DNA of 64,000 bases, taken from contig NZ_KE383873.1 of NCBI RefSeq assembly GCF_000422545.1, positions 289,905-353,904 of the forward strand. Direction: 5' to 3'. Made by a program: the position numbers and the translations under genes. Below, piece after piece: positions 38,262 to 46,612 of this stretch. Positions within the stretch are counted from its first letter, which is position 1. Each line of letters starts with the position of its first letter. Origin of the DNA: Desulfocurvibacter africanus subsp. africanus DSM 2603 (GTDB taxonomy: Bacteria; Desulfobacterota; Desulfovibrionia; Desulfovibrionales; Desulfovibrionaceae). The notes under the pieces are model-generated. The model was not told where the DNA came from, did not search any database, and saw only the letters and a list, made by a program, of their open reading frames with translations.

Positions 38262-38385
38262 AGCAGATTGCTTTTAAGACGCCCGCTCCGGCGTTGACGG
38301 CGCAAGTGAATTGCGCCTACGCCTACGCGGCGGCAAGCCATGCCGACGCATGGCTTGCAGAGCATTTTCAAAAGCAAAATGCTCT
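38260..38385 (+). repeat. 126-bp hairpin repeat, copy 3 (MITE-like)
   Basis: Almost identical to copy 1. Hairpin 1 is GGCGCAA-GTGAA-TTGCGCC, hairpin 2 is GCAAGCCATGC-CGAC-GCATGGCTTGC, and hairpin 3 is AGAGCATTTT-N7-AAAATGCTCT at the right end. TA flanks both ends, and the left TA is part of the DUF3096 stop codon TAG. Confidence 0.9.
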
Positions 38386-42200: not shown

Positions 42201-42242
42201 AAGCCCGTAGAGATTGTCGGCTGGGTTTTGTTACTGGCTCCT

Positions 42243-42368
42243 AGTGCGGATTGCTTTTAAGACGCCCGCTCCGGCGTTGACGGCGCAAGTGAATTGCGCC
42301 TACGCCTACGCGGCGGCGAGTCATGCCGAAGCATGGCTCGCAGAGCATTTTCAAAAGCAAAATGCTCT
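42243..42368 (+). repeat. Hairpin repeat, copy 4 (MITE-like)
   Basis: Same structure as the other copies. Hairpin 2 is GCGAGTCATGC-CGAA-GCATGGCTCGC: the third A-T pair of the other copies is replaced by G-C through changes in both arms. TA flanks both ends; the right TA belongs to the TAG stop codon of the leftward beta-barrel gene. Confidence 0.9.
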
Positions 42369-43788
42369 AAAAGAAGTACGTGATCCAGAACTCCGTGCGG
42401 GCGTCCTGCAGCTTTTCCCCGAACTCGCTCTTCTCAGGTCCAAAGGGCATGATGAGCCTGGTCCTCAGCTCAAGGTCGGACCGGATCAGGTAAGACACCT
42501 CAGGGTTGATGCTGAAGCTGTGGTCGCCCAGGTTGGCGATGACCGTCAGCGTGGGCGTCAAGTAAAGGATGTCGAACGGCTCCTTCTGCGAAACCCTGAA
42601 ATAGAGGTAATTCCGGCCCACGCTGCTCTGGTTAAAGTCCTGGCCGGCCAGAGTGCTCCGTTTCAGGAGCCGGTCGTTGCCCGTCTCCAGGTACTGCTGG
42701 TAGCCGTTCTCAATGAGCGTGAAGTAGTCGTCCATCTCGCCAGGCGAGTAGCCCTCGCCGTTGTGGTAATATTCAAGGATAAAGGTCGTGTCGTAGGCGT
42801 TCAGGTAGCGCAGGCCCAGCAGGAAGCTATAGGCATCGTAGCGCTCCGTGCGCAGGTTGCCCTGCTCGTCGGTGAGCGTCTTGTCGTAATCAAGGCGCAG
42901 GGCCGCCTCGCCGTGGATCTCTAGGTTACTGCTCAGATTTCTGGAGAAATCCAGGCCATAGCGCGTGTCGTAGTCCTCGCCGGTTGCAAAGAGCAGGTCG
43001 ATGTCGGTGTCCATGAGCAGGAAGTACAGCTTTCCGGCATAGACCAGGGAACCATCGTCGGCGAGGTCGGCATTGACGTCCTCGTCTACCGGGACGAGCA
43101 CCGGGGTGAAGGCCACGTTGGTCAATGGACCCTGGAAGCTCTTGATGTAGTCGGCGTAGGCCAGGACATAGCCCTGGCGGGCATAATCGGGATCATCGAC
43201 GTCCTTGGGCCGGCTGACGAAGGCCACGGGGTTCCAGGCATAGCCCTTGCCCCAGTTGAGGACCTTTTTGCCGGCTTCAAGCGTGAACGCGTGGGAGGGC
43301 CGCCAGGTGGCGAAGCCTTCCTCAAGGAGCACCTGGCTTGCCCAGTGCTCCTCGTCGCGCAGGAACTCCTCCGACGGCTCGTCCGGGGCCGTACCCCCGC
43401 GCTTAGCCTCGCTCCAGGCAATATCGAAGCGCGGGCGGGCGTACAGGCCGACCTCGGTCCATTTGTAGGAAACCTCGGGCTTCAGGCTGAGCAGGAAGTC
43501 CGCCAGCAGCGAGTCCTGCGGCTCATTATAAAAGCGCTGCTTGTAGAGCAAGGCGTCCGTGTCCAGGAAGCGCGCGATCGAACGCTGCTCGACCCGGCCC
43601 CAGAGATTGAAGGGGTTGGGAGTCTCGGCCTCGGGAATCTCGAAGTCCAGATCGTATTCGTCGCCTTCGGCATTCTGGGCACCTTGGGCCAGGGCTGTCG
43701 CAGGGCACAGCGCGTGCGCCAGGAACAGCAGGGCCGCCAGGGTCGCCATGAGCGGCTTGGCAATGGGCGTGAAGAAAGCGCTGCGCAT
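42367..43788 (-). CDS. Outer-membrane beta-barrel protein (DUF1302-like)
   Basis: The 473-residue protein has a signal peptide (hydrophobic about 13-33, cut after ALA), then long alternating beta-strand patterns (NLWGRVEQRSIARFLDTD, GKKVLNWGKGYAWNPV) and a C-terminal FWITYFF with final phenylalanine, which fits an outer-membrane barrel. GKKVLNWGKGYAWNP resembles DUF1302/DUF1329-partner barrels. It is the last of four co-directional genes with a MacB/LolD-type ATPase, an FtsX-type permease and a LolA-like protein. It may be the outer-membrane end of an export route. AAGGACGGAGCC precedes ATG 43788. Confidence 0.8.
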   Translation of the reverse strand: MRSAFFTPIAKPLMATLAALLFLAHALCPATALAQGAQNAEGDEYDLDFEIPEAETPNPFNLWGRVEQRSIARFLDTDALLYKQRFYNEPQDSLLADFLLSLKPEVSYKWTEVGLYARPRFDIAWSEAKRGGTAPDEPSEEFLRDEEHWASQVLLEEGFATWRPSHAFTLEAGKKVLNWGKGYAWNPVAFVSRPKDVDDPDYARQGYVLAYADYIKSFQGPLTNVAFTPVLVPVDEDVNADLADDGSLVYAGKLYFLLMDTDIDLLFATGEDYDTRYGLDFSRNLSSNLEIHGEAALRLDYDKTLTDEQGNLRTERYDAYSFLLGLRYLNAYDTTFILEYYHNGEGYSPGEMDDYFTLIENGYQQYLETGNDRLLKRSTLAGQDFNQSSVGRNYLYFRVSQKEPFDILYLTPTLTVIANLGDHSFSINPEVSYLIRSDLELRTRLIMPFGPEKSEFGEKLQDARTEFWITYFF

Positions 43789-43883
43789 GGCTCCGTCCTT
43801 GTAAACGCACTTGGGAACGCACTTGCATTGGCTCGGCGACCCTCCCGGCGGTGCAGGAGGGCCGCAAGCGGACAGGTCGGGAG

Positions 43884-44636
43884 CTACTGCCGAAGGCTCT
43901 CCACCCTGGGCAGGTAGTTCAGGGTGAAGACTTCGTCGGGCAAATCCCGACGCTGGACCTTGGCGAAAATCATCACGGACTTGTAGCCTTTGTGCAGGGG
44001 GCTGTCGGTCTCGATGACCGCCGGCCGCATGAAGCCGTCGCCGAAGTCGGTGGGCTTCTTGAAGTACAGGGTCTTGATGAGCATGCCCGAGGCCGCCAGA
44101 CACCTGATCTCCGTGGGCAGGAGGGCCTGCTTGTCCACGAGCATCTCCAGGCGGTCATAGGCCACTTCGCGCGTCTTGGCCTTCAGGCGCAGCAGGTGGG
44201 ACTCGCTTTTGTCCTCCACGCCCTCAACCGTGTACTCGACATGGAAGTCGAGGCGCATGATGTCGGCGTTGTTGAAGATGCCGCCGGTCACGGACTGCAG
44301 GCTGGTGATGCGTACGGGCTTGCCCACGTTGGGGATGTGCAGCCACATGTTCTCGCCCAGGCGCAGCGTGGCGCGTCCCTTGTCGCTGGTGGGCGCGAGG
44401 AAGACCGAGGCGATCCTGTCCTGGCCTTTCTTGACCGTGTAGAGCGTGTACTCGCGCTTGGAGCCGTCCGGCTCGATGTTGATGAGCTTGCGGTAGGACT
44501 CGTAGCTCTCCGGGGCCAGATTGCGGTCGATGGTGCGCAGCAATTCATCACCATCGATGGCTTGGGCGGACCAAGCGGGCTGGGCCAAGCCCAGTGCCAG
44601 GATAAGCGCCAGGATGAACTTATGGGCGTTGCGCAT
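43884..44636 (-). CDS. LolA-like outer membrane lipoprotein-sorting protein
   Basis: A 250-residue periplasmic protein with a signal peptide (1-23, cut near AWSA) and the LolA-like half-barrel seen in proteins annotated as outer membrane lipoprotein-sorting proteins: YTLYTVKKGQDRIASVFLAP, LGENMWLHIPNVGKPVRI, DKQALLPTEIRCLAASG and KTLYFKKPTDFGDG. Proteins of this group usually lie beside FtsX-type ABC transporters and carry lipid-like cargo across the periplasm. It sits between the permease and the barrel gene. GGAGAATCACTC precedes ATG 44636. The cargo is unknown; it is not the housekeeping LolA by context. Confidence 0.83.
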   Translation of the reverse strand: MRNAHKFILALILALGLAQPAWSAQAIDGDELLRTIDRNLAPESYESYRKLINIEPDGSKREYTLYTVKKGQDRIASVFLAPTSDKGRATLRLGENMWLHIPNVGKPVRITSLQSVTGGIFNNADIMRLDFHVEYTVEGVEDKSESHLLRLKAKTREVAYDRLEMLVDKQALLPTEIRCLAASGMLIKTLYFKKPTDFGDGFMRPAVIETDSPLHKGYKSVMIFAKVQRRDLPDEVFTLNYLPRVESLRQ

Positions 44637-44655
44637 GAGTGATTCTCCTTGGCGG

Positions 44656-45909
44656 TTAGACATGGCCCAGGGCCTCCACCGGCTCCATGCGGCTGGCCTT
44701 CCAGGCGGGCTGCAGCGCGGCCAGTGTCGAGGCTGCCAGGACGATGATTGCTATGGCCAGGAACTCGCCGATATCGATCGTCGGTCGCAGGGCCAGGTTG
44801 TCCATGCGGGCGAAGGAGAAAGTGATGTTGGCGTACTTGACCGCTAAAAGTCCGGCCAGGCCAAGGGCGCTGCCCACGGCTGCTCCCAAAAGGCCCAGGA
44901 CAAAGCCCTCGACCACGAACAGACCTAGTATCTTGCCCGGCGTTGTGCCCATGGCCGCAATGGTGCCGATCTCCCTGACGCGCTCGAACACGGACATGAG
45001 CATGACGTTGAGCACGCTGATGAGCACGATGGCGATCATGATGATCTTCACCGTGACGATCATGAGGTCGATCATGCCCGCGATGTTGGCGAACGGGGAG
45101 AGCTTGGCCCAGGTGTGTGCCTCGAAAGCCGGCTTGCCCTGCTTGTTGGTGAACTGCTGGATTTGCATATTGATGCGGCCAGCAATTTTGTCGAGGGAGC
45201 CGAAGTCCTTGACCCGGATGACTACTTCCGAGACCTCGGCGCTGTCGATGCGCAGAAGCTCCCGGGCATCCTCGATGTGCAGGTAGGCGTCCTTGCCGCT
45301 TGGCCCGGCCACGTCCTCGATGAGGTTGCCGACGGTGAACGGCATGCCGTTGACCGAGCCGTCTTTGTTTGTGGCGATCAGGACCACCGAATCTCCTGCC
45401 TTGACGCCCATGGCAGCGGCCACCCTCTGCGGGATGACGATCTCGCCTGGCGAAACCAGAGGTGCGGCGACCAGGACCGACTTGTCGAGCAGGCGATCAG
45501 GCAGCGCGGGGCATACGACCGTTTCCTTGCTCGGGTCCACGGCCGTGACGCGCACGTTGGTGGTCTCGGCGTAGTTGCTGAGCATGGCCCCGAGCTTGAT
45601 CCGAGGCGCGTACGCAGCCACGTCAGGGTCCTTGTCGAGCACGCCGGCGAGCTGTTCGTAGCCCTTGGCGCTCATGTTCAGGTTCAGCGGCAGGCTGTCT
45701 ATGGACGCCACGTAGCCCTTGCGGTGGATCTGCAGGTGGCCGAGCGTCGAGTCGGTGATGATGCCGACCATCATGGCCTTGAACGACCCGGCTAGCCCAG
45801 AGAAGAGCAGGACCATGGTCACGCCCAGCACGATGAGCAGGGAGGTTAGGATGGTCCGCCGTTTGTAGCGCAGCAGGTTCCGCAGCGCGATCTTGAACAT
45901 GCTACGCAT
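44656..45909 (-). CDS. FtsX/MacB-family ABC transporter permease (LolC/E-like)
   Basis: The 417-residue protein starts with [24 protein letters not shown], the amphipathic lead and first transmembrane helix of MacB/LolCE permeases. A large periplasmic domain (about 45-280) follows, then three more helices ([40 protein letters not shown] and [20 protein letters not shown]) and the closing [17 protein letters not shown] typical of FtsX domains. The family uses ATP to push lipoproteins or other envelope molecules outward. Its start overlaps the ATPase stop by eight bases; GGAGG lies before the ATG. Confidence 0.88.
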
Positions 45910-46612
45910 GGGACAGACCTCCGCTCAGAAAGGTGGAGTCCTGGACGAGCCTGCCGTCCTCGATGGTGTGGACCACATCCGCGTGCTCGACAATCCTTGG
46001 ATCGTGCGTGGAGAAGACGAAGGTCGTGCCGAAGCTGTCGCGCATCTCGCGCATGAGCGTGATGATCTTGTGCGCGGTGGCCTGGTCCAGGTTGGCGGTC
46101 GGCTCGTCGGCCAGCACGACTTCGGGGTTGGTGACCAGGGCACGGGCCACGGCCACGCGCTGCTTCTGGCCGCCGGAAATCTGGTCGGGCATCTTGTCCT
46201 TTAAGGCCATCATGCCCACGGCCTCCAGCACCCGCCAGACCCTGGCCTCCCTCTCCGTTGCCGAGACGCGCTTGATCATGAGCAGCGGGTACTCCACATT
46301 TTCGTAGACGCTCAGCACGGGGATGAGGTTGAAGGACTGGAAGATGAACCCCAGGTGCTCGCCACGGAACCTGGCCGCCTGGCGGCGATCCAGGGTGTCC
46401 ACGCGCGTTCCGGCCACGCGGACCTCGCCTTGCGTGGGCTTGTCCATGCAGCCGATGATGTTGAGCAGGGTCGTCTTGCCGCTGCCCGAGGGGCCGACAA
46501 AGGTGACCAGCTTGCCCTGGTCGATGGTGATGGTGATGTGCGTGAGCGCCTGCTGCGACACGTGGCCGATGGTGTAGGACTTGGAGATGTCGCTGAGTTC
46601 AATGAGGGCCAT
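45902..46612 (-). CDS. MacB/LolD-type ABC transporter ATPase
   Basis: The 236-residue nucleotide-binding subunit has Walker [10 protein letters not shown] near residue 40, the Q-loop [18 protein letters not shown], signature [14 protein letters not shown] near 145, and Walker [13 protein letters not shown]; all belong to the LolD/MacB branch. It energises the permease encoded next in overlap. It is the first gene of the four-gene operon and starts about 120 bp downstream of a double palindrome. ATG 46612 was chosen at the start of family similarity; the 54-residue upstream extension runs into the operator region and was rejected. Confidence 0.9.

Follow-up and report, generated by a model that had tools for sequence, protein, structure and literature searches.

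A conserved four-gene ABC-FtsX-LolA-barrel operon: a candidate export line taking a lipid-like molecule to the outer membrane or across it

The Lol systems (LolCDE/LolDF-LolA-LolB) combine a type VII ABC transporter, whose FtsX-class permease has the LolC/E fold, with a periplasmic chaperone of the LolA superfamily and, at the outer membrane, the lipoprotein LolB. Comparable layouts have been described with other parts. The Borrelia cluster BBJ23-29 contains an ABC ATPase, a MacB/Lol-type permease, a LolA-like protein and an outer-membrane barrel of the Omp85 type, together with two TPR proteins and BBJ29 (PMC13078400). AmeABCD of Castellaniella consists of an RND pump, a DUF1329 chaperone and a DUF1302 barrel (PMC6394551), and the P. 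putida proteins PP_0765/0766-PP_2018/2019 join a LolA-superfamily periplasmic protein and a barrel to an inner-membrane pump (PMC10866462). For ApeLMN, which couples an RND pump to a LolA-like and a LolB-like protein, the proposed role is outer-membrane delivery of an aryl-polyene lipid (PMC8253772). MacAB-TolC is built on the MacB-class ABC/permease architecture.

Here we describe an operon of Desulfocurvibacter africanus subsp. africanus DSM 2603, found in a stretch of 64,000 nucleotides of contig NZ_KE383873.1 (the window), that resembles each of these systems in part. It shares with Lol the classes of ABC transporter, permease and chaperone superfamily, but its chaperone belongs to PF17131 instead of PF03548, and its outer-membrane partner is a barrel instead of LolB. 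Where AmeABCD and the P. putida system use RND, DUF1329 and DUF1302 proteins, the window operon has an ABC transporter, a PF17131 protein and a barrel without a DUF1302 match. ApeLMN also has a LolA-like chaperone, a dedicated inner-membrane motor and a ketosynthase cluster (as do the plasmid relatives of the window operon described below), but it has an RND motor and the LolB-like ApeN in place of the ABC transporter and the barrel. Unlike in MacAB-TolC, the window permease is separate from the ATPase and is structurally nearer to LolC/E; the four-gene operon contains neither a MacA adaptor nor TolC, and no adaptor is found among its most frequent neighbour families. No Borrelia record in the plasmid collection matched the window LolA or barrel at an E-value of 1e-5. 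An earlier note on this DNA could match the operon to no described system. Searches of the open-licence literature found only analogues and no description of the ABC-FtsX-LolA-barrel family; since comparable layouts exist (Borrelia BBJ23-29, AmeABCD and ApeLMN), the four-gene set is a variant of a known design.

The features of the locus are listed in Table 1. Gene calls and Pfam matches agree with the earlier reading that the four genes run in one direction and that the first two overlap. The ATPase and permease genes overlap by 8 nt, as do the permease and LolA_like genes, and 95 nt separate the LolA_like gene from the barrel gene. Neither an Rfam match nor a tRNA was found in the window, and a promoter/terminator scan gave no informative site. 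An interspersed repeat begins directly after the barrel stop codon; a further copy lies on the same contig near window position 38300, and the genome holds at least 41 copies with 87-100% identity (368 first-look candidates). Upstream of the operon, on the same strand, is an Mla-type operon, with a hemerythrin gene between the two; MlaD and MlaE are absent among the frequent neighbour families of the relatives' four-gene operons.

Table 1. Features of the four-gene operon and its surroundings (window coordinates)
Feature	Coordinates	Strand	Details
Four-gene operon	46612-42367	-	ABC ATPase, FtsX-type permease, LolA_like chaperone, outer-membrane barrel
ABC transporter ATPase, LolD/MacB/FtsE class	45902..46612	-	236 aa; PF00005 9.7e-35
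FtsX/MacB_PCD permease, LolC/E/F fold	44656..45909	-	417 aa; PF02687, PF12704
Periplasmic LolA_like chaperone	43884..44663	-	259 aa; PF17131 8.7e-38; N-terminal signal sequence
Outer-membrane beta-barrel	42367..43788	-	473 aa; 18 strands, C-terminal Phe; AF2 model
Interspersed repeat	42241-42368		128 bp
Hemerythrin gene	47546-46989	-
Mla-type operon	51668-47881	-	MlaE, ATPase, MlaD, ABC_trans_aux lipoprotein

The window ATPase has a Walker A motif, the signature ISGGQ and the Walker B motif VVLADEPT, and the motifs are intact in its orthologues. Its best NCBIfam match is LolD at 216 bits, below the cut-off of 307.75, and it is therefore not classed as a LolD equivalog. The permease likewise falls below the LolC/LolE equivalog cut-off (TIGR02212 lolCE, 107.8 bits against 362.45). 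By structure, however, it has the LolC/E/F fold: its AlphaFold2 model (pLDDT 83) finds LolE and LolC as the best Foldseek matches (TMq 0.68-0.71), with MacB farther away. The description of the pair as a MacB/LolD-type ATPase and an FtsX-type permease thus holds (Pfam families in Table 1), and the permease presumably forms a homodimer. In E. coli, LolA recruitment requires the Hook, whose sequence is poorly conserved even within Lol (PMC10865981). At the position of the LolC/LolF Hook, the window permease family has a hairpin of equal length in 71 of 71 members, 5 residues shorter than that of LolF, and the loop carries a strongly conserved TN(K/R)DGSVNG.

The periplasmic protein matches PF17131 at 130.2 bits (gathering cut-off 30) and has no match to PF03548; it is thus a member of the LolA_like family and not of the PF03548 LolA family. 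Its closest solved structure is NE2245 (3buu, 1.3e-24), and none of 79 aligned LolA_like chaperones has a lipobox. Together with the signal sequence, the family match confirms that it is a LolA-like periplasmic protein.

The same genome encodes a separate LolA elsewhere (PF03548, 98 bits, above the cut-off) and a separate LolC/E-type permease (397 bits, above the cut-off of 362). A second PF03548 match in this genome (G000:C27:18493-18996, L100) contains an in-frame TGA. The general family resemblance of the operon to Lol would fit the organism's ordinary LolCDE-LolA system. However, since canonical LolA and LolC/E-type genes are present separately, a housekeeping Lol identity is rejected. The ATPase and permease scores below the LolD and LolCE cut-offs and the sporadic distribution (38 of 297 genomes) also argue against it, and we consider this explanation extremely improbable. 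The operon therefore coexists with the canonical Lol set and is a separate line; that it differs from LolCDE-LolA-LolB was also the inference of the earlier note.

The AlphaFold2 model of the outer-membrane protein, built from the family alignment, has 18 strands with a mean pLDDT of 90, and its Foldseek matches are AlgE, chitoporin and MOMP (TM about 0.5). A C-terminal Phe is found in 62 of 69 aligned barrels and a lipobox in none of them. Thus, an 18-strand barrel, and not a LolB-type lipoprotein, serves as the operon's outer-membrane partner. The name "DUF1302-like barrel" given to it at first is half right: it is a barrel, but neither the window protein nor any of the 69 aligned members matches DUF1302 (PF06980) at E<=0.1, and this identity is rejected. 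Searches with PF06980 in five genomes gave no match anywhere, controls included, and are uninformative on absence. No Pfam family matched the barrel, and a sequence search found no solved relatives. The model is AlgE/porin-like and no Omp85 entry is among its 50 best Foldseek matches, so that it is not classed as Omp85-type. As judged by strand alternation, the presumed inward face is polar, has many acidic residues and shows higher conservation than the outward one (0.64 versus 0.54), although its polarity is partly circular because the face was assigned by polarity. The conserved motif GKKVxKWGKGYAWNP comes after strand 5 and in the model is probably a loop into the barrel lumen.

The barrel fold is generic (AlgE, porins and MOMP, TM about 0.5), as would be expected if an ABC-FtsX-LolA trio carried a lipid or lipoprotein and the barrel were merely a co-transcribed porin. 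The linkage of the barrel to the other genes argues otherwise. A scan of GTDB genomes with the window LolA-like protein as query, biased to the close clade, found 80 loci from Desulfobacterota, Beta- and Gammaproteobacteria, Rokubacteria, Aminicenantes and a planctomycete. LolA identity across the conserved loci is 55-80%, and the gene order is kept across phyla, far more than chance would give. The order ABC-FtsX-LolA-barrel is retained in essentially every relative with enough contig: with all four genes called, it runs along a single strand at 63 of 82 loci, the remainder being mostly cut by contig ends or having genes missed by automated start picking. The commonest LolA-barrel junction in the relatives is a 4-nt stop/start overlap.

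Since the LolA query is biased to the close clade, we searched for the barrel independently in 297 genomes of the phylum. There were 40 strong LolA places in 38 genomes, and at 38 of the 40 same-strand barrel sequence followed no more than 515 nt downstream (at two as short pieces only). One exception (G146) has a KAP-family NTPase gene (L110:5086-6549) inserted between LolA and the barrel. The other (G114) has no barrel, and its FtsX and ABC frames are split, which indicates that the set decays together. The three strong barrels without a LolA partner in this survey are all at contig ends. Weaker relatives have the same parts, at times in the rearranged order LolA-FtsX-FtsX-ABC-barrel with two permeases (L114), and the linkage is held there as well. 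With the barrel linked across phyla, commonly by an overlapping junction, and also in rearranged relatives, a merely co-transcribed porin is very unlikely. The operon is distributed sporadically, both in the phylum and in the window organism's own family. Its tree needs several changes of phylum label; these suggest transfer but fall short of proof, as bins can be mixed.

A small secreted Nitro_FeMo-Co (NifX-like) protein is encoded at about 22 of the 82 close loci. Its gene usually lies between FtsX and LolA, and in two cases directly upstream of the ABC gene. On a planctomycete contig it forms a single-frame fusion with the LolA domain (L084, 5608-6666), and a remnant of such a fusion is found in L038 (2625-3584). 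Across more than 80 loci, no other gene family recurs in or beside the operon. ArsP_1, FeoB, Metal_resist and ArsR-type genes are neighbours in a few loci. The NifX-like accessory and these neighbours hint at a metal link, which lipid export leaves unexplained. Such a link would be expected if the four genes served efflux or stress relief by removing a toxic amphiphile or a metal-bound compound, a role to which the acidic lumen of the barrel would also be suited; in Porphyromonas, an MMPL-LolA_like operon is among those most strongly induced by haem/iron limitation (PMC10470040, PMC10434189). However, among the 100 neighbours scanned on each side, any one metal-related family turns up just two or three times, a count without a matched background, and the window operon has no NifX-like gene. 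We therefore consider the efflux explanation quite unlikely.

A clue to the cargo comes from more distant relatives. The order ABC-FtsX-LolA-"hypothetical" is found on plasmids of E. coli, Enterobacter, Rahnella, Paraburkholderia, Aliiroseovarius and Vibrio, and profile-profile comparison shows that the "hypothetical" proteins are homologous to the window barrel (99.4% probability, E-value 4.7e-21). Five of the six annotated plasmid sets adjoin genes for a ketosynthase, acyl carrier protein, malonyltransferase, crotonase, P450 or phosphopantetheinyl-transferase, the one without such neighbours being that of Vibrio sp. HDW18. Ketosynthase clusters with a distant four-gene set are carried by plasmids of E. 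coli G8 (L119), Enterobacter bugandensis (L129) and Rahnella sikkimica (L130). These plasmid neighbours are the strongest clue to the cargo, pointing to an acyl- or polyketide-derived lipid. The window has no biosynthetic genes with the operon, and the close clade has none consistently, so that this clade and its plasmid relatives may transport different cargoes.

The permease and chaperone are within the Lol fold classes, and lipoproteins were considered possible for the similar layout of Borrelia BBJ23-29 by its authors (PMC13078400). The operon could accordingly be imagined as a specialised Lol paralogue for one or a few lipoproteins, which the barrel would bring to the cell surface. This is unlikely, however, as across more than 80 loci only the NifX-like family recurs in or beside the operon, leaving no dedicated lipoprotein partner, the canonical Lol genes are also present, and the distant relatives lie within ketosynthase clusters. 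The earlier note had left the cargo as a lipid, lipoprotein or hydrophobic metabolite; the acyl/polyketide biosynthesis clusters in which most plasmid relatives lie narrow this range, and the operon has no conserved lipoprotein gene.

Taken together, we propose, with a probability of roughly 0.6, that the operon encodes a dedicated export line for a lipid-like molecule, amphipathic and bearing an acyl chain, which it would bring to the outer membrane or across it. The type VII (LolCDE/MacB-class) ABC pair would use ATP to lift the cargo from the inner membrane's outer leaflet. The LolA_like protein would hold it in its hydrophobic cavity and ferry it across the periplasm, and the 18-strand barrel, replacing LolB as the receptor, would let the cargo or its polar head through its conserved hydrophilic lumen, either into the outer leaflet or to the outside. 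The order of this relay, from the ABC pair to the LolA_like protein to the barrel, is drawn by analogy with LolCDE; likewise, we infer which way transport runs, how the cargo is handed over, that the chaperone docks on the barrel and to what chemical class the cargo belongs. Counting against lipid export, the polar and acidic lumen of the barrel is ill suited to a purely hydrophobic cargo. The idea of a complete line from the inner membrane through the periplasm to the outer membrane survives, with the barrel co-occurring with the other three genes in relatives and the Lol genes encoded separately.

The route by which lipids and lipidated natural products pass through the periplasm and reach the cell surface is a standing question. 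We tentatively suggest that the operon may represent a widespread and undescribed class of ABC-powered trans-envelope lipid exporters, in which a LolA-class chaperone would deliver cargo into the lumen of a dedicated 18-strand barrel. Some branches would be ketosynthase-linked and others stand-alone, and some members would have a periplasmic NifX-like partner. The compact, co-inherited set of four genes offers a likely outer-membrane receptor of a LolA-class chaperone, namely the barrel, which makes the hand-over step directly testable, and the ketosynthase-linked sets on enterobacterial plasmids provide a route to the cargo.
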